In this document: piece by piece, positions 5,060-16,402 of the stretch | Numbering within the stretch: position 1 is the first letter of the stretch | How the letters are laid out: every line of letters starts with the position of its first letter | Origin: Pseudobutyrivibrio sp. | GTDB taxonomy: Bacteria > Bacillota > Clostridia > Lachnospirales > Lachnospiraceae | Reading direction: 5' to 3' | Length of the DNA: 45,268 bases | NCBI RefSeq assembly: GCF_015057185.1 | Contig: NZ_SVEV01000029.1 | Span: forward strand, 1 to 45,268 | Program-made: the position numbers and the translations under genes | Notes under the pieces: model-generated | Seen by the model: the letters and a program-made list of their open reading frames with translations, nothing else | Told to the model about the DNA's origin: nothing | The model's database searches: none

Positions 5060-6481
5060 TTATAAATCATTTAAATCCATCATATTAAGACTAGCATTTC
5101 TTCGCTCTTCGTATGACTCACTAGTACTGTAGTCTTCTACAGCATCCTCTTCCTCATAGTCTTCATCATACTCATCATCTTCATCCACGTCGTCTTCATC
5201 ATCTCCGAAAACATCGCCATCATCACGACCTCTGAACACTATTGAACGAGGAAGCTTTCTTGAAGCCTTAACTGGAGACTTAGCAAAAACGTCTCCATCA
5301 AAATCATCGTCATCTTCACCACGATTCTTAATAATTCTGTTGATTGTTATGAATAACAATACAACACAAAGAACTATAAGTCCCATGATTATCTTTCTAT
5401 AGAGTGCAAGCTTCTGAATGAATACGCTATTATCAGAGTCAGTTGTAGCTTCTGCGTCTTCATCAGTTGAAGTGCTAGATGAATCGGCACTAATAGCTGA
5501 TGTATCAACTCTAGAAACTGTTCCATAAGTCTGGTCATATACATACCAGCCTTCAACCTGATTCTGATTTGTTCCATATACATAGAAGAACTCTGCGCCA
5601 TCAACTGTATATGCATTTATTTCAACACCATTTACATTAACTGTAGTTTGAGAAAATGCACTACCTGGTGTATCGGATGTTTCCTGTACAAGAACATATT
5701 TATCAGAATCACCAAGCATAGTAAAGTTTGAAACTGTACCTGCTGCCTCATCATAAAGGTAGAAAACACCTGAACCAGAAGTATTATCTGCTGGTTTTAA
5801 ATAAAGTAATGTAATCGATCCGTTAGTAGGCTCGCTGTATGTACTAGAGCCAATTGTGATAGTAGTTTTTGAAAATCCAGAAGGCATTTCAGAATCTGAA
5901 TAACGTTCTGAAACGACATATGAAACACCATCAATATCAAAGCCACCATCAGAATTGAGAGTGCCTACAGCTGTACCTGATACAGTAGAGGTTGTTTCGG
6001 TAGTCTCTTCTGTCTCAGCAGGCTCTTCTGTAACAGTGACCTCTGTCTCAGTCTGTTCTGTTGTTTCTTCTGTAGTCTCTGTAGTAGTGGAAGTACTAGT
6101 ACTAGCTGAATCTCCTCCGATTGTAAGAGTAGTACTGCTACCAGAGCAGCTAGATGATGAAACTATAATAGAAGCTGTTCCTGCGGATGCTGCTGTAAAT
6201 TTAATGTCTCCACTCTTACCTGAGAAAGAAACTGAATTTCCTTCTGCAGAAGCTCCCGATACGCTACACTCAACATATGAAAGCATGCTAGAAGTATATT
6301 TCACTGTAATGGTGCCACTCTCAGAAGCTGTAACTGATACCGTAATAGAATCACCTACTGCCGCTGAACTCTTGGATACAGAAATCATGGTCGTACCCTG
6401 GGCAAAAACCACCATCTGCATCGCCATAATAAAAATGACCGCAAAAATAGTATTTAAAGTTCTTTTAAACAATTTATTCAT
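5060..6481 (-). CDS. Surface protein: cohesin-like domain, Thr/Glu linker, one TM, acidic tail
   Basis: The 473-residue product has a signal peptide (NKLFKRTLNTIFAVIFIMAM), then a beta-rich domain of about 95 residues (ISVSKSSAAVGDSITVSV to TTLTIGGD) that resembles cohesin or bacterial Ig-like folds, a long Ser/Thr/Glu-rich linker (about 125-165), a second extracellular region with GWYVYDQTYGTVSRV, one transmembrane helix (KIIMGLIVLCVVLLFITINRI, about 365-383) and a cytoplasmic tail of about 88 residues that is strongly acidic (DEDDEYDEDYEEED). The arrangement suggests an outward-facing domain linked to a cytoplasmic acidic segment. No substrate is evident. The start is the ATG at 6481 with GGAAGG upstream; a longer reading frame would need a TTG. 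It has a consensus promoter and may be co-transcribed with clpC. Confidence 0.82.
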   Translation of the reverse strand: MNKLFKRTLNTIFAVIFIMAMQMVVFAQGTTMISVSKSSAAVGDSITVSVTASESGTITVKYTSSMLSYVECSVSGASAEGNSVSFSGKSGDIKFTAASAGTASIIVSSSSCSGSSTTLTIGGDSASTSTSTTTETTEETTEQTETEVTVTEEPAETEETTETTSTVSGTAVGTLNSDGGFDIDGVSYVVSERYSDSEMPSGFSKTTITIGSSTYSEPTNGSITLLYLKPADNTSGSGVFYLYDEAAGTVSNFTMLGDSDKYVLVQETSDTPGSAFSQTTVNVNGVEINAYTVDGAEFFYVYGTNQNQVEGWYVYDQTYGTVSRVDTSAISADSSSTSTDEDAEATTDSDNSVFIQKLALYRKIIMGLIVLCVVLLFITINRIIKNRGEDDDDFDGDVFAKSPVKASRKLPRSIVFRGRDDGDVFGDDEDDVDEDDEYDEDYEEEDAVEDYSTSESYEERRNASLNMMDLNDL

Positions 6482-8485: not shown

Positions 8486-10078
8486 CTATTTTAAGCTTGC
8501 TTTAATGAAAGCTGTAAATAATGGATGTGGCTTATTTGGACGGCTCTTGAATTCTGGATGGAACTGAACACCAACATGGAATTTGTTAGAGGAAACCTCA
8601 ATAGCCTCTACAACCTCATCATTAGGTGATGTACCAGAAATAGTAAGTCCCTTTTCTGTCATAAGCGTTCTATATGAATTATTAAACTCAAATCTATGTC
8701 TATGTCTCTCTGAAATATTCTCAGAGCCATATGCTTCAAAAAGCTTTGTATCTGTACGAACTGCACATGGATAAGCACCAAGTCTCATAGTGCCACCCTT
8801 TCTAAGAACTGCCATCTGTTCTTCCATAAGGTCGATTACACAGTTCTTTCCAGTGCTATTGAACTCTCTAGAATTTGCATCTGCGATACCACATACTGAA
8901 CGAGCAAACTCGATAGCTGCGACCTGCATGCCAAGACAAATACCAAGATAAGGTATATCATTTTCTCTAGCATATTTGCAAGCCACAATTTTGCCTTCTA
9001 CACCTCTGTCTCCAAATCCGCCAGGCACTAAAATCCCATCAACTCCGCCTAGAACCGCAGCTACATTGTCTTTTGTAATTTCTTCAGAGTCAACCCACTC
9101 AATTTCTACATGTGCATTGTTTGCATAACCACCATGGTAAAGTGCCTCACGAACAGAAAGATATGCATCATGAAGAGCTACGTATTTACCAACAATAGCA
9201 ATCTTTGTTACCTTCTTGAGCCCCTTGATGTTTTCAACCATTTTCTCCCATTCCTCAATTTCAGGTGGGTTATTCTCAAGGCCAAGCTCACGGCAAACCA
9301 CATCATCAAGACCATATTTGTGCATCATGAGTGGCGCTTCATATAGACACTCTAACGTATCATTCTCAATTACACAATCTTTTTTTACATTACAGAATAA
9401 AGAAATTTTGTCTTTGATTGATTGTTCAAGAGGATGATCTACTCGACAAACAATAATATTTGGCGAAATACCAAGTGATTGAAGCTCCTTAACAGAGTGC
9501 TGTGTAGGCTTAGATTTATGTTCCTCAGAGCCTGAAAGCCAAGGAACTAATGTAACGTGAATGAATAGACAATTTTCACGTCCTTTCTCAAGAGAAACCT
9601 GACGAATCGCCTCGAGGAATGGTTGCGATTCAATATCACCTGTTGTACCACCAATTTCTGTGATTAGCACATCACAATCCGAAGTCTCTGCACCCATGTA
9701 AATAAAGCGTTTGATTTCTTCTGTGATATGTGGAATAACCTGAACAGTCTGTCCAAGATACTCACCCTTACGTTCTCTATTAAGAACATTCCAATAAACT
9801 TTTCCTGATGTAAGATTTGAATATTTGTTAAGACTTTCATCTATAAAACGCTCATAATGACCAAGGTCAAGATCAGTCTCTGCACCATCATCTGTAACAA
9901 AAACTTCGCCATGTTGGTATGGGCTCATTGTTCCTGGGTCCACATTCATATATGGATCAAGCTTTTGTGAAGCTACCTTGTATCCTCTCATTTTAAGTAA
10001 GCGTCCAAGAGACGCTGCTGTAATACCTTTTCCTAAACCAGATACTACACCACCTGTAACAAATACATGCTTAGTCAT
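8486..10078 (-). CDS. pyrG: CTP synthase
   Basis: Converts UTP to CTP using glutamine and ATP in the cytoplasm. The 530-residue protein has the N-terminal synthetase domain ([33 protein letters not shown]) and the C-terminal class I glutamine amidotransferase with nucleophile loop GICLGMQ and the distal VQFHPEF motif. I choose the ATG at 10078, preceded by AAGGAG at a spacing of 6, rather than an in-frame ATG five codons upstream that would overlap the previous gene. The start sits one base after the stop of the ANTAR regulator, so translation is probably coupled. Placement behind glnA links glutamine supply to a major glutamine consumer. Confidence 0.97.
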
Positions 10079-10079
10079 A

Positions 10080-10652
10080 TTATGCTCCTTCATATTTTTT
10101 AATAATCTCTTTTGCTACTTCCGCTCTAGACAATCTAATATCCATAGCTGTCTTTTCAATATATTTATGTGCATCCTCTTCTGACATATTCTGATTAATA
10201 ATCAAAAGAAGCTTTGCTCTTGAAATTATTTTCATGTCCTCAAGCTTTTTCTCTAATTTCGCACTTTCTTTTTGTGCCAAACTAATGCGGCGCTGAGCAA
10301 CATGAGCAAGCTTTAAGGCCTGCCAAAATAATTGTTTATTAATCGGTTTTTCTACTGTGATAACTCCGTAATCTTCCACCTTTGCTGATATTTCATCAGC
10401 ATACTCAGCCTTTATAAATAGAATAACCTGACAGATATTTTTCTCTGCTATGTCAATAGCAAGTTCCTGTCCATTAGTGCCACCAATCGGCGCATTAATT
10501 AGACAAATATCAAAATCATATTCCGAAATTGTTCGTTTTGCAGTAGAACAATTTTCTACAACGAGCATATCTAGAATCCCATTTTCTTTTAAAAAGGATT
10601 TGTAAAAGGCGGTTCCTTTTTCGTTATCACAGACAATTAGCGCCCTTTCCAT
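10080..10652 (-). CDS. ANTAR-domain RNA-binding antiterminator with degenerate receiver
   Basis: The 190-residue product has an N-terminal receiver-like fold (1-110), a coiled-coil linker (about 113-140) and a C-terminal ANTAR domain (about 135-187) with the typical [23 protein letters not shown] and [11 protein letters not shown] pattern. ANTAR proteins (AmiR, NasR, EutV) bind pairs of hexaloop hairpins in nascent RNA and prevent termination. The expected phospho-acceptor Asp is Asn53 (CLINAP), and the acidic pair near the N-terminus reads CDNE, so activation by phosphorylation is unlikely; a ligand or partner protein is more plausible. Lys102 of the EKP motif is kept. It lies 18 nt after glnA, and the glnA leader holds a matching RNA target, which makes autoregulation likely. 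Confidence 0.92.
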
Positions 10653-10670: not shown

Positions 10671-11918
10671 TTAGTCTGTATTTTTAATAGTCTCAATATA
10701 ACGGGCTGCTATATCTGCGAATTCTGAGTTTTGAATAAAATCACTATTCTCAGCACAATCGATTGCCTCTTCTATTGAAACAGGTAACATATCAAAGTAT
10801 GCTGAACGATCCTCAGTTAAGAATCTTGAATTAACTTCCAATTCTGGTGGTAAAGTTTCTTTATTTTCGACTCCCGCTAAGCCAGCCTGAATAATAATGG
10901 CACTAGCTAAATATGGATTAATACACGAATCCGGAGAACGAAGAATAAAATGATTTCTTTTTCCATTTACCTCAGGTACTCTAAGGAGACGTGAATTATT
11001 TTGAGATGACCAAGTAATATATTTTGGTGCCTCGCTCATTCCAAATCTATCGTATGAATCCTTGCGGCAATTCAAAAAAATTGTAATATCTCTCATTCTG
11101 TTAAGAATTCCAGCCATGAAATTCTCAGAGAATTCTTTGTCATCATTAATTAAATTAACAGCACCTCTATAGTTTGCCATCTTAATATGCAAACCATTTC
11201 CAGGGGCATCAGCGATTGGCTTTGGATCAAAGGAAGCCCAAACGCCGTTTCTAGCAGCGATATTTTCAACAACATTTTTGTATGTCACAAGATTATCTGC
11301 TGTTGTAAGAACGTCTGCAGGTGTGAAGTCAATTTCATTTTGACCTGGACCTCTCTCATGATGTGAGGATTGAGGAGATATTCCCATCTCCTCGAGAGTT
11401 AAACAAATTTCTCTTCGAATGTTTTCTCCTTTGTCATTTGGAGCAACATCTAAATATCCGCCATTATCAAATGTTTCCTTTGTAGGATTTCCATTTTCAT
11501 CTGTTTTGAATAAATAAAACTCTGACTTAAGTCCCATTCTTGTGGTGAATCCCATTTTCTCGCATTGATTAAGGGTATTCTTAAGAAAATTTCTGTAGTC
11601 ATATTTGTAAGGTGAACCATCAGCAAGAACAACATTACAATAAAAACGTATTACTCTTCCTGACTGTGGGCGCCATGGCAAAATGTGCATGGTATCTGGA
11701 TCTGGTTTTAAGAATAAATCTTGTCCATCGGTCTCCTCGTAGCCCAAAATAAGAAAAGAGTCGAAATTAACACCCTCATCGAAGGCGTATTTCAACTCTT
11801 GTGGCATGATTGATATGTTTTTTTGTGTGCCATATAGGTCACAAAAGGCTAGACGTATAAATTTAACGTCATTCTCTTGAACGAAATCAATGATATCTGT
11901 AACTGATAACTGAGACAT
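10671..11918 (-). CDS. glnA: Glutamine synthetase, short divergent type I form
   Basis: Makes glutamine from glutamate, ammonia and ATP. At 415 residues it is shorter than the usual roughly 440 residues. Metal and substrate motifs are recognisable but altered: SEFYLF (Glu133) for the EVEFFLF motif, PGNGLHIK for the G-G-M-H-x-H region (first His kept, second position Lys), SEAPKYITWS for the YEAPCYVAWS flap (Glu kept), NNSRLLRVP where most type I enzymes read NRS-x-x-IRIP, and FILRSPDSCINPYLA for the C-terminal active-site block. It is therefore probably catalytic but of a divergent clade; synthetase activity itself is inferred. The start is fixed by AGGAGG 5 nt upstream. The leader contains an ANTAR-type attenuator, and the next gene encodes the likely antiterminator. 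Confidence 0.93.
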   Translation of the reverse strand: MSQLSVTDIIDFVQENDVKFIRLAFCDLYGTQKNISIMPQELKYAFDEGVNFDSFLILGYEETDGQDLFLKPDPDTMHILPWRPQSGRVIRFYCNVVLADGSPYKYDYRNFLKNTLNQCEKMGFTTRMGLKSEFYLFKTDENGNPTKETFDNGGYLDVAPNDKGENIRREICLTLEEMGISPQSSHHERGPGQNEIDFTPADVLTTADNLVTYKNVVENIAARNGVWASFDPKPIADAPGNGLHIKMANYRGAVNLINDDKEFSENFMAGILNRMRDITIFLNCRKDSYDRFGMSEAPKYITWSSQNNSRLLRVPEVNGKRNHFILRSPDSCINPYLASAIIIQAGLAGVENKETLPPELEVNSRFLTEDRSAYFDMLPVSIEEAIDCAENSDFIQNSEFADIAARYIETIKNTD

Positions 11919-11930
11919 ATTTCCTCCTAA

Positions 11931-11991
11931 AAAATAAAAAAAAGGCGTTTTTTTTTATGAAAGATTCCTCTTCCATAAAAAGCACGCCTTT
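11931..11991 (-). terminator. Leader terminator (attenuator) upstream of glnA
   Basis: On the minus strand AAAGGCGT (11991-11984) pairs with ACGCCTTT (11948-11941), extended by TTTTTATG/CATAAAAA inside, then a T-rich run (11940-11931). It lies directly before the glnA Shine-Dalgarno, so it can only act as a leader terminator. Its 5' arm is also the loop and 3' arm of the upstream P2 hairpin, so the two structures exclude each other. Confidence 0.9.
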
Positions 11992-11998
11992 GTACTTT
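11979..11998 (-). promoter_or_regulatory. ANTAR target hairpin P2 in the glnA leader
   Basis: AAAGTAC pairs with GTGCTTT (7 bp, one G-T wobble) around the six-base loop AAAGGC. The loop has A at position 1 and G at position 4, as required for ANTAR recognition. It overlaps the terminator 5' arm, so stabilising it would prevent termination. Confidence 0.85.
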
Positions 11999-12004
11999 GC
12001 AAGT

Positions 12005-12022
12005 TTACAATACCATTTGTAA
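12005..12022 (-). promoter_or_regulatory. ANTAR target hairpin P1 in the glnA leader
   Basis: TTACAA pairs perfectly with TTGTAA around the six-base loop ATGGTA, again with A1 and G4. P1 ends six nucleotides before P2 begins. Paired hexaloop hairpins with a short linker are the known ANTAR RNA motif. The glnA promoter must lie upstream of 12022; a TATAAA at 12056-12051 is the best -10 candidate but lacks a good -35. Confidence 0.87.
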
Positions 12023-12067
12023 TTTGTAAAGGTGTTTTTTTTGCTTACACTTTATAAAATTTGTTTA

Positions 12068-12145: not shown

Positions 12146-15100
12146 ATGGAAAACAAACTATTTAAACTCGGCATTGACATAGGTTCAACAACAGTGAAAA
12201 TAGCCGTGTTAGACGACGATAATAATATTTTATTTTCTGATTATCAGAGACATTTTGCTAACATACAGCAGACTTTAACTGATTTATTAACTCAGGCAAA
12301 ATCTAAGCTCGGAACCATCCAGGTTAAACCAATGATTACAGGTTCTGGTGGACTCACATTGGCAAAACATCTTGGAGTAGAGTTCGTACAGGAAGTAATT
12401 GCAGTTTCCAGTGCACTTACGTTCTACGCACCTCAAACAGATGTAGCTATAGAGCTTGGTGGTGAAGATGCTAAAATTATATATTTCGAAAACGGAAATG
12501 TAGAACAGCGAATGAACGGTATCTGTGCAGGTGGTACAGGTTCATTTATCGACCAAATGGCATCACTTTTACAGACAGATGCTACTGGTTTAAATACATA
12601 TGCAAAGGATTATAAAGCAATCTATCCTATCGCTGCCCGTTGTGGTGTATTTGCAAAAACAGATATCCAGCCACTTATCAACGAAGGTGCTTCAAAGGAA
12701 GATCTTTCAGCTTCTATTTTCCAAGCAGTTGTAAATCAAACAATTTCCGGACTTGCATGCGGTAAACCAATTAGAGGTCACGTAGCATTTTTAGGTGGTC
12801 CACTTCACTTCTTGGATCAGCTTAGAGAAGCTTTTATTAGAACATTAAAGCTTGATGATGAGCACTCAATTTTACTTGATAACTCTCATCTTTTTGCTGC
12901 AATTGGTTCTGCCCTTAATTCAAAAGAAGATAACAATGTCCCTATGGATTCGTTGATTGATAGCCTTTCTCAGGGAATTAAGATGGATTTCGAAGTAGCA
13001 AGACTGGAGCCATTATTCGAATCCGAAGAGGCATTTAGAGAATTCAAAGATAGACATGCAAAGGCTCAGGTAGAAAAAGGTGATTTAGCAAATTATCACG
13101 GCAATGTTTACTTAGGTATTGATGCCGGTTCTACTACTACTAAATTAGCTGTAGTTGGTGACGATGGAAAGCTTTTATATTCATTCTACTCAAGCAATAA
13201 CGGTAGCCCACTAGCTACTTCTTTAAAAGCTTTAAAAGAGATTTACTCTATCATGCCTGAGGATACCCACATTGTTCATTCATGTTCTACAGGTTACGGC
13301 GAGGCTTTGTTAAAAGCTGCATTACAGCTTGATGATGGCGAAGTAGAAACTATCGCACACTACTATGCCGCAGCATTCTTTAATCCTGATGTTGACTGTA
13401 TCCTTGATATTGGTGGTCAGGATATGAAATGTATCCGCATCAAAAATGGAGTTGTTGATAGCGTTCAGCTTAACGAGGCATGTTCATCTGGTTGTGGTTC
13501 ATTTATCGAGACATTTGCAAAGTCTCTTGATTTTAGTGTACAGGATTTCGCCGAGGAAGCTTTGTTTGCTCTCAACCCAATAGACCTTGGAACACGTTGT
13601 ACAGTATTTATGAACTCTAAGGTTAAGCAAGCACAAAAGGAAGGAGCTTCTGTAGCAGATATTTCTTCAGGCCTTGCTTATTCAGTTATCAAAAATGCAT
13701 TATTCAAGGTTATCAAGCTTTCTGATGCATCAGAGCTTGGTAAGAACATCGTTGTACAGGGTGGTACATTCTACAATGACGCTGTTCTTCGTTCTTTAGA
13801 GAAGGTTGCAGGCGTTGATGTTGTTCGTCCTGATATTGCCGGTATTATGGGTGCTTTCGGTTGCGCATTAATCGCTAAAGAGCGTTACGAAGAAAATCCT
13901 ACAACTACTACACTTGGTATTGATGAGATTAATTCTCTCACTTTTGATACAAAGCTTACACGTTGCCAGGGTTGTGTAAACCACTGTCTCCTTACAATCA
14001 ATAGATTTTCAGGCGGACGTTCATTCATCACTGGAAACCGCTGTGAAAAGGGTGCAGGTGGAGTTAAAAACAAAGAGAATATACCAAACCTTTACGATTA
14101 TAAATACAATAGATTATTTAGCTATGAACCACTTTCTGAGGAGGAAGCAACAAGAGGCACAGTTGGTATTCCACGAGTACTAAACCTCTATGAGAATTAT
14201 CCATTCTGGGCTACATTCTTTAACAAGTTAGGATTCAGAGTTGTACTCTCTCCTCGTTCAAATCGTAAGGTTTACGAATTAGGCATTGAATCAATTCCAT
14301 CAGAATCAGAATGTTATCCTGCAAAGATGGCTCACGGTCACGTACAGTGGTTAATTAACGAAGGAAATGTGGACTTCATTTTCTATCCTTGTATTCCATA
14401 CGAGCGAAATGAATTCCCTGATTCTAATAACCACTATAACTGCCCTATTGTTACTTCTTATGCTGAAAACATAAAAAATAATGTTGATGAAATCACTAGT
14501 GGAAAGGTACGTTTCCTTAATCCTTTCATGGCATTTTCTAGCGAAGAAATACTTACTAACCAGCTTAAAAAAGTATTTGCTGCTGAGTTTAATATTAGCG
14601 GTTCCGAGGTACAGACTGCGGCTCATGCTGCTTGGTTAGAACAAGAAAACTTCAGAAATGATATGTATAAAAAGGGTCAGGAAGTTCTTAAGTATTTGGA
14701 AGAAACTGGCAAACATGGAATTGTATTAGCTGGTCGTCCTTATCACGTTGATCCTGAGATTAACCACGGTATACCAGAGCTTATTAATAGTTACGGCATT
14801 GCTGTCCTCACTGAAGATTCTATTTCAAATCTCGGAGAGGTTGAGCGCCCACTTATCGTTATGGATCAGTGGATGTTCCATTCAAGAATGTATGCTGCAG
14901 CAAACTATGTTAAGAAGCATGATAACCTTGACTTAATTCAGCTTAACTCATTTGGATGCGGACTTGATGCTGTTACTACAGATCAGGTTTCAGATATACT
15001 TACCCACTCAGGCAAAATTTATACATGCCTTAAAATTGATGAAGTTAACAACCTAGGTGCTGCAAGAATTCGTGTACGTTCACTCCTTGCTGCCCTTCGT

Positions 15101-16402
15101 GTAAAGAAAAAGAAAAACCAGGAACGCACTATCGTGCCTGCAAACTATAACCGTATCGTATTTACGGAAGAAATGAAAAAGAATTACACAATTCTTTGCC
15201 CACAGATGTCACCTATCCACTTCGACCTTATTGAGCCAGCATTTAATGCTGCTGGATACAATTTGGTAGTGCCAGACATCCCAACACGTACTTGTGTTGA
15301 CGTTGGTCTAAAATATGTAAACAACGATGCTTGTTATCCATCACTTATGGTAATCGGACAGCTTATGGCCGCAATCGAAGAAGGTAACTTCGATATGAGC
15401 AAAACTGCTCTTATGATTTCACAGACTGGTGGTGGTTGCCGTGCTTCAAACTATATCGGATTTATTCGTAGAGCACTTGCAAAAGCAGGATACCCAGATG
15501 TTCCAGTTATCTCACTTAACGTTAGTGGATTAGAGAAGAATCCTGGATTTAAGCTTTCTCCTAGTCTTCTACAGCATGGATTATATGCACTTACATTTGG
15601 CGATATTTTACTTCGCTGCGTATATCGAGTTCGTCCTTATGAGGCAGTCCCTGGCTCTACAGATGAATTACATAGACAGTGGAAGGAAAAGCTTATTGAA
15701 TTCGTTTCATCTAAGAAGATTCTTTCACACAGAAAGTTCAAGAGACTTTGCCGTGAAATGATTAGAGATTTTGATAATCTTCCAATCATCGAAGGTCTAG
15801 TAAAGCCACGTGTTGGTATTGTTGGAGAAATCCTTGTTAAATTCCTTCCAGCTGCCAATAATCATTTAGCTGAGCTTCTTGAACAAGAGGGTGCTGAAGC
15901 TGTCGTTCCAGATTTAACAGACTTCTTACTTTACAGTTTCTACAATGCAAACTTTAAAGAAGAAAATCTTGGAACAAGCAAGAAAACAAAGTTCTACTGC
16001 AATATGGGAATTAAGTTCTTTGAATGGTTAAGAAGCGCTGCAAGAGATGAATTTAACAAGTCAAAGCGATTCACTGCACCTGCATACATAACAGACACTG
16101 CAGAAAATGCAAAGGAAATTGTTTCACTTGGTAACCAGACTGGCGAAGGTTGGTTCCTTACTGGAGAAATGCTCGAGCTTATCGAAAATGGCGCAAGCAA
16201 CATTGTATGTATACAGCCATTTGGATGCTTACCAAACCACGTTGTAGGTAAGGGTGTAATTAAACATATTAGACATGAGCATCCTGATGCAAACATAGTT
16301 GCAATTGATTATGATCCAGGCGCATCAGAAGTTAACCAGTTAAATAGAATAAAGCTTATGCTTTCTACAGCAAATAAAAACTTAAACAAAAAAGAGGCCT
16401 AA
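12146..16402 (+). CDS. Giant 2-hydroxyacyl-CoA dehydratase activase-type protein (two ASKHA domains plus DUF2229/HgdB-like)
   Basis: The 1418-residue protein carries two tandem BadF/BcrA/HgdC-type ATPase domains: the first starts [11 protein letters not shown] (residue 8), the second [11 protein letters not shown] (about 323). Each keeps the cysteines that hold the bridging [4Fe-4S] cluster in dehydratase activators: [10 protein letters not shown] near 127 and RCGVF near 165; [10 protein letters not shown] near 446 and TRCTVF near 484. A CxxC-x3-C cluster follows near 607-615, then a DUF2229-like region and a C-terminal part resembling HgdB-type dehydratase subunits (about 1000-1390). HgdC-type proteins energise electrons with ATP for radical dehydration of acyl-CoAs. 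Such fused proteins occur widely in Clostridia without a partner operon; the substrate is unknown. The Shine-Dalgarno (AGGAAAG) is 13 nt from the ATG, farther than usual. It is the only plus-strand gene in the window. Confidence 0.9.

Follow-up and report, generated by a model that had tools for sequence, protein, structure and literature searches.

A probable single-hexaloop ANTAR attenuator in front of a glutamine synthetase-like gene in Pseudobutyrivibrio sp.

Overview

In Pseudobutyrivibrio sp., the operon formed by a glutamine synthetase (GS)-like gene, an ANTAR gene and pyrG is best explained as being governed by a transcription attenuator with a single hexaloop, with the GS-like protein acting as sensor, a reading to which we assign a probability of about 0.7. 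Judged on its own, the promoter-proximal attenuator with one ANTAR hexaloop is highly probable from comparison with related leaders, and for the GS-like protein as the sensor that gates the ANTAR protein we see an even chance. The operon lies on the minus strand of the window, i.e., the whole stretch of 45,268 nucleotides that was analyzed, and has the following features:

12025..12030, minus strand: -35 hexamer TTTACA from a consensus scan (alone not significant), kept with 17-bp spacing in relatives
12005..12022, minus strand: hairpin 1, TTACAA[ATGGTA]TTGTAA, loop at 12011-12016; judged to be promoter DNA and not a transcribed hexaloop
12002..12007, minus strand: -10 hexamer TAAACT, conserved in relatives; transcription start predicted from it at about 11994-11996
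11979..11998, minus strand: hairpin 2, AAAGTAC[AAAGGC]GTGCTTT, loop at 11986-11991; putative antiterminator with the single ANTAR hexaloop, based on outer-pair covariation and the AANGGN loop
11941..11991, minus strand: intrinsic terminator stem-loop from folding, arms 11984-11991 and 11941-11948
11936..11943, minus strand: terminator U-tract, read from the sequence
11923..11928, minus strand: Shine-Dalgarno sequence AGGAGG, read from the sequence
10671..11918, minus strand: GS-like protein of 415 aa with start codon from 11918, candidate sensor; metal-2 ligands lost (E129K, E357I) and R339 replaced by N, from profile scores and structure alignment
10080..10652, minus strand: ANTAR antiterminator of 190 aa with a receiver-like domain whose phospho-Asp position is Asn
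8486..10093, minus strand: CTP synthase (pyrG), at the end of the likely operon; open reading frame from 10093, probable start codon at about 10078

In the proposed mechanism, the 5' end of the RNA would coincide with, or slightly precede, a small hairpin whose loop is AANGGN. By default, this loop and the 3' half of the hairpin would pair with downstream sequence to form the terminator, and transcription would end after approximately 60 nt. The co-encoded ANTAR protein, when bound to the hexaloop, would prevent terminator formation and the operon would be read. The GS-like partner would hold the ANTAR protein as long as nitrogen (glutamine) is plentiful and would release it under limitation. 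More tentatively, and with odds slightly below even, a nitrogen regulon of Clostridia and above all of Lachnospiraceae (GS, GOGAT, ammonium and amino-acid uptake, in places CTP synthase) could be run by such one-hexaloop attenuators at the 5' end, with an ANTAR protein gated by a GS-derived pseudo-enzyme sensor that decayed repeatedly.

Conservation of the Second Hairpin

An initial annotation of the window had described two hairpins with A1/G4 six-base loops at a distance of six bases, the second of which overlaps the 5' arm of an intrinsic terminator ahead of the Shine-Dalgarno sequence. All of this is borne out by the sequence: a six-base linker separates the hairpins, and the terminator draws its 5' arm from the hexaloop together with the 3' strand of the hairpin 2 stem. 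The folding of the leader beats 200/200 shuffles (z = -4.5), and hairpin 1 alone is a weak fold (z = -0.9).

Related leaders were taken from the best 80 of 97 loci encoding homologs of the GS-like protein, which range from Pseudobutyrivibrio to Romboutsia. The 27 leaders aligned were chosen by a pattern that fixes two inner pairs and A1/G4 of hairpin 2; outside this set remained L054, dropped as odd, and L006, L007 and L076 (other inner pair), which did not match the pattern; L076 was recovered by the strict overlap scan given below, and in the other loci no leader of this kind is seen. The 4-bp stem of hairpin 2 is paired in 108/108 cells. Because its inner two pairs and A1/G4 were fixed by the picking pattern, the free evidence lies in the two outer pairs, which are paired in 54/54 cells and one of which occurs as six pair types (AU, UA, CG, GC, GU, and UG). 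Among the 69 sites that were picked by fixed sequence (see below), the next, unfixed stem position pairs in 69/69 and the one beyond in 60/69. As judged from these alignments, hairpin 2 is kept beyond chance with compensatory changes, and it overlaps the terminator. The terminator helix is paired in 91.2% of 216 cells in the leaders and does not clearly covary more often than in shuffles; its arms hardly vary.

The hexaloop of hairpin 2 and its overlap with the terminator are thus kept in most, not all, leader-bearing relatives, and loop 1 is not. A1/G4 is lost in the L007 leader, and two Pseudobutyrivibrio leaders have the five-base loop GTAC[AAGGC]GTAC (L006, at most 170 nt before the GS start, and L089, positions 1501-1563). 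No leader was seen before the GS-like gene in L014, L015, L018, L020, L021, and L023-L025, where the end of the upstream gene reads, by eye, like gltD; control in these gltD-adjacent loci may come from a leader further upstream.

The First Hairpin and the Promoter

The two-hexaloop motif that the initial annotation had seen in the leader does not extend to the relatives. At the place of hairpin 1, their aligned sequences have -35 and -10 elements that are conserved, and the spacer does not keep the hexaloop. An upstream A1/G4 hexaloop with at least 3 bp at a suitable distance was found in 3/27 leaders, window included, where 1.2 were expected, and an upstream hexaloop in 3/54 matches of the extended structural scan (2.4 expected), one of the three again being the window. 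In the 69 pattern sites there were seven with at least 3 bp (3.3 expected) and three with at least 4 bp (1.2 expected). Expectations for the 27- and 54-leader counts derive from mononucleotide shuffles; dinucleotide shuffles were used for the 69-site counts, the rarity of hairpin 1 given below and the structural scan of GS-ANTAR operons. The dual hexaloop was therefore rejected as a family motif, its upstream member being near chance in the 54 scan matches and about twofold above it in the 69 sites.

A promoter with at least 10/12 matches lies within 60 nt upstream in 41/69 pattern sites, against 1.9 expected, and in 31/69 (0.8 expected) the -10 element ends at most 21 nt from the stem, which leaves no room for a first hairpin. 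In the window, the promoter scan alone performs no better than shuffles (2 sites found, 1.9 expected), and a best-score promoter search chose non-conserved sites in L009, L012, L017, L019, L022, L030, and L039. Since this search is unreliable in some relatives, the promoter claim is built on the aligned sequences and the 69-site count. This comparison lends no support to hairpin 1 as an RNA element; it would be promoter DNA, and from that promoter the first hexaloop would go untranscribed.

The initial motif scan required two hairpins and missed most relatives. As a positive control, seven regions were inspected from nine eutB places in seven of 21 genomes, and one dual hexaloop was convincing by eye. 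This leader with terminator lies at about 6097-6170 (plus strand) of L256, a locus from another Clostridia genome, with an ANTAR gene on one side and eutB on the other, and reads GC[AATGGG]GC followed by GGC[AATGAA]GCT; two stricter scans of the seven eut regions missed it.

Distribution, Target Genes and the Link to ANTAR Proteins

When a structural scan demanded an A1/G4 hexaloop, a stem of 4 bp or more beneath it and overlap with a terminator, all within 330 nt upstream, the element was detected before 50/169 GS-ANTAR operons (47/162 without near-duplicates), where shuffles predict 0.3; by the same scan, 119/169 GS-ANTAR loci have no such leader. In an extended scan, the loop read AANGG(N) in 54/54 matches (with L037 and L040 counted twice in shifted register), although the rule demanded A1 and G4 only; A2, which it did not demand, was constant in all of them. 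A strict overlap scan was positive in 20/81 leaders versus 4/1620 shuffles.

In 299 Lachnospiraceae genomes, a covariance model of the leaders (R1) matched in 32 and a refined model in 58. Within the window's own genome, R1 found the window leader only (150/890 candidates scored; window in the training set), and a second match on the opposite strand (20.8 bits, E 5.9) was dismissed as an inverted terminator. A sequence pattern gave 76 matches in 69/299 of these genomes, compared to five for the reversed pattern. The leader of the window itself escapes this pattern; the covariance models detect it because it was in their training set.

A script classified 69/76 sites by the gene that follows: GSI (19), GSIII (11), PII (6), Amt (3), SBP family 3 (5), GlnQ-like (2), GltB (1), branched-chain SBP (1), PPDK_N-like (6), CP_ATPgrasp (4), and other (11). 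Thus, 48/69 precede GSI, GSIII, PII/Amt, GltB or amino-acid transporter genes. By eye, the remaining seven comprise two GltB, one each of GSI, GSIII, PII-Amt and the ATP-grasp type, and one unknown. Leaders accordingly occur before glnA, glnN, glnK-amtB, gltB and amino-acid transporter genes. Among the 30 loci read from the model matches, L090, L093, L096, and L112 precede other or unclear genes. In two genomes besides that of the window, pyrG itself is preceded by a related leader (L099, and L089 from the window's genus, with the five-base loop). No leader was seen by eye at the two GSIII-sized genes in the window's genome. The leader is also found recurrently before a protein with a C-terminal PPDK_N match (L198, L209, L210, L211, L213, and L218) and before a circularly permuted ATP-grasp protein (L101, L154, L200, and L204); these two families, which have no obvious nitrogen role, are candidates for unrecognized nitrogen functions.

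Of 236 genomes sampled across the class, 19 contain the pattern, and ANTAR proteins are encoded in 19/19 of them compared to 118/236 overall (hypergeometric 9e-7, with kinship ignored); three reversed-pattern matches also fall in ANTAR genomes. The association is weaker within Lachnospiraceae, with ANTAR in 67/69 pattern-positive genomes versus 265/299 overall (p = 0.006). Of the two pattern-positive genomes that lack ANTAR, one (G137, 81% complete) carries its leader upstream of a GSI gene. Class-wide, 17/22 sites precede the same gene families, two of the 22 being sites of G261 already contained in the family set. Taken together, the hexaloop, its overlap with the terminator, the nitrogen targets and the ANTAR co-occurrence make an ANTAR-controlled attenuator very probable. 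This part of the initial annotation of an ANTAR-type leader before the GS-ANTAR operon can be retained, and its dual hexaloop is not supported.

The GS-like Protein and the ANTAR Protein

The gene initially annotated as glnA is GS-like, but its product scores 298 bits against type I glutamine synthetase (TIGR00653), below the cut-off of 429, and lacks two metal ligands. Alignment to solved GS structures places K at E129, I at E357 and N at R339, whereas the metal-site residues E131, E212, E220, and H269 are kept; numbering and site roles follow the E. coli enzyme. From its sequence, the protein is probably not an ordinary glutamine synthetase. The enzyme activity could come from two other GS matches in the window's genome, open frames of 717 and 708 aa that look GSIII-like by eye.

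E129 or E357 is changed in 65/170 GS copies (in one of them only as E129D; 58/163 without near-duplicates), which is not a family-wide rate, given that loci entered the sample through their similarity to the window GS; in the genome-search subset a metal ligand is lost in 13/89. A quick FastTree tree, computed without careful support, requires at least five changes for these losses. GS copies of the Agathobaculum/Butyricicoccus type (L057, L058, L060-L062, L064-L068, L070, L072, L073, and L079) show another set of changes, D50N, E129A and E357K, which, by sequence, looks like independent decay beside the same ANTAR gene. An ANTAR gene follows the GS gene in 167/170 loci (160/163 without near-duplicates); of the three misses, two come from contigs that break off within the GS gene, and on separate inspection the third, L079, does have the ANTAR gene.

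As initially annotated, the operon encodes an ANTAR protein: the C-terminal ANTAR domain (PF03861) scores 53.9 bits against a cut-off of 27.3, the receiver domain, with 29.5 bits, stays just under the Pfam cut-off of 30.2, and the sequence matches structures of Rv1626, EutV, and NasR. The phospho-Asp is replaced by Asn in 73/79 GS-linked ANTAR proteins, window included, and without it input from a kinase is unlikely. In a comparison with the residues named in PMC8934654, 78/79 GS-linked ANTAR proteins retain K149, E160 and the essential Met, the other being gapped. Y164 of EutV, the aromatic residue stacking on G4, is His in the window and in 78/79 (the other again gapped), and R142 is Met in the window and Met, Leu or Ile in 69/79. 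As two of four G4-contact residues of EutV differ, hexaloop binding by the GS-linked proteins is not assured.

The sensor step would fit the GS-ANTAR linkage, the loss of catalytic residues and the loss of the phospho-site. By analogy with AmiC-AmiR (PMC3369936) and GS-TnrA (PMC6316151), the GS-like protein may bind the ANTAR protein in a glutamine-dependent manner.

Alternative Explanations

In a classical dual-hexaloop leader, the RNA would start upstream of 12022 and the ANTAR protein would use both hairpins. The A1/G4 positions of both loops and the six-base linker, which lies within the 5-12 nt given for E. faecalis eut genes in PMC3369931, agree with such a design, and a hexaloop with at least 6 bp at the distance of hairpin 1 arises in only 0.2% of shuffles of the window leader. 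This rarity is the reason why we leave the design a small probability. However, hairpin 1 is not conserved in any of the three sets of leaders, coincides with the conserved promoter elements, folds weakly, and has a loop, ATGGTA, that departs from AANGGN. Even less probable is an ordinary terminator or promoter-proximal pause without any ANTAR protein, in which the loop would be kept merely as part of a terminator arm. G4 and G5 of the loop do pair in that arm, which is a second cause of conservation, but the 5' side of the hairpin lies outside the terminator and covaries with its 3' partner, A2 is constant without having been asked for (A1 was imposed by the scan), and the leader is associated with both ANTAR genes and nitrogen genes.

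If the attenuator is real, the GS-like protein might still be merely a co-regulated enzyme, and the ANTAR protein might sense on its own or via another partner, e.g., PII. Both E129 and E357 are kept in 105/170 GS copies, and glnK-amtB is a frequent target in relatives (9/69 sites). The pairing of GS and ANTAR genes nevertheless persists where the catalytic residues are gone, and the receiver of the ANTAR protein has no phospho-Asp in 73/79; we regard this explanation as unlikely, though a serious competitor, and prefer the single-hexaloop attenuator with a GS-like sensor.

Relation to Known Systems

GS-ANTAR operons are known, as exemplified by NitR with the gene order glnA-nitR. NitR of Clostridium saccharobutylicum was reportedly described by Stutz 2007, and the control of TnrA by the GS of Bacillus subtilis is said to go back to Wray 2001. 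According to PMC6316151, NitR is an ANTAR antiterminator that induces GS/GOGAT cycle genes on nitrogen limitation, and the B. subtilis GS controls TnrA by binding this regulator. The window resembles the NitR operon type in that the ANTAR gene directly follows the GS gene, and differs from it by a GS-like protein that lacks metal ligands and by the pyrG gene that follows. The pseudo-receiver ANTAR protein recalls AmiR of Pseudomonas aeruginosa, which is gated by a partner protein (PMC3369936); there the partner is the amide-binding AmiC, whereas here it would be the GS-like protein. With GS-TnrA (PMC6316151) the window would share the involvement of a glutamine synthetase in nitrogen control through binding of a regulator, but an active enzyme and a DNA-binding regulator act there, whereas an often decayed GS and an RNA-binding regulator would act here.

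ANTAR leaders before nitrogen genes, GS included, are on record in PMC3369931 and PMC3369936, and Ramesh 2012 (PMC3369931) names P-II, ammonium transporters, and glutamate and glutamine synthesis downstream of them. Like the target RNAs of EutV, NasR and AmiR, the leaders described here combine a short, terminator-overlapping stem bearing an A1/G4 hexaloop with nitrogen genes downstream and an ANTAR protein in the genome; unlike them, the window type has one hexaloop, located at the predicted transcript start, with the tighter loop AANGGN. Work on EutV (PMC3369931, PMC8934654) found both hexaloops to be necessary, which counts against a single-hexaloop model. In the latter source, Walshe 2022 defines one hexaloop as the minimal binding motif, states that antitermination needs both to be contacted, and asks for single hexaloops to be studied bioinformatically. 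Searches of the open-access literature turned up neither the architecture with a single hexaloop at the 5' end nor its regulon nor the decayed GS.

How far ANTAR control makes use of single hexaloops is left open by Walshe 2022 (PMC8934654), and the natural set of single-hexaloop leaders, constant in architecture, offers a direct test for which a single protein and an RNA of about 80 nt would be enough. Searches for two hexaloops, as in Ramesh 2012, would be expected to miss such leaders. If the proposed reading is true, a family common in gut and rumen would gain an assigned mode of nitrogen control, and the persistence of a GS gene with broken metal sites beside an RNA-binding regulator would be explained.

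Further Observations Around the Leader

No Rfam family reached its gathering score in the window leader or in the seven leader loci tested; elsewhere in the window, Rfam matches were RNase P, rRNA, and tRNA. A sub-threshold overlap with RF02353 in L113 (E 0.007, 25.5 bits versus a gathering score of 39) was judged to be chance. A dyad, TTTAC...GTAAA, surrounds the -35 and -10 elements at 12002-12030 of the window and is also present in L026-L028, L032, L033, L037, and L040, all of which are leaders of decayed GS genes. It may be an operator for some DNA-binding protein or a chance overlap with promoter elements. The divergent neighbor of the operon (12146-16402, plus strand) encodes a protein of 1418 aa with BadF/BadG ATPase and DUF2229 domains, which is of the CoA-enzyme activase type.
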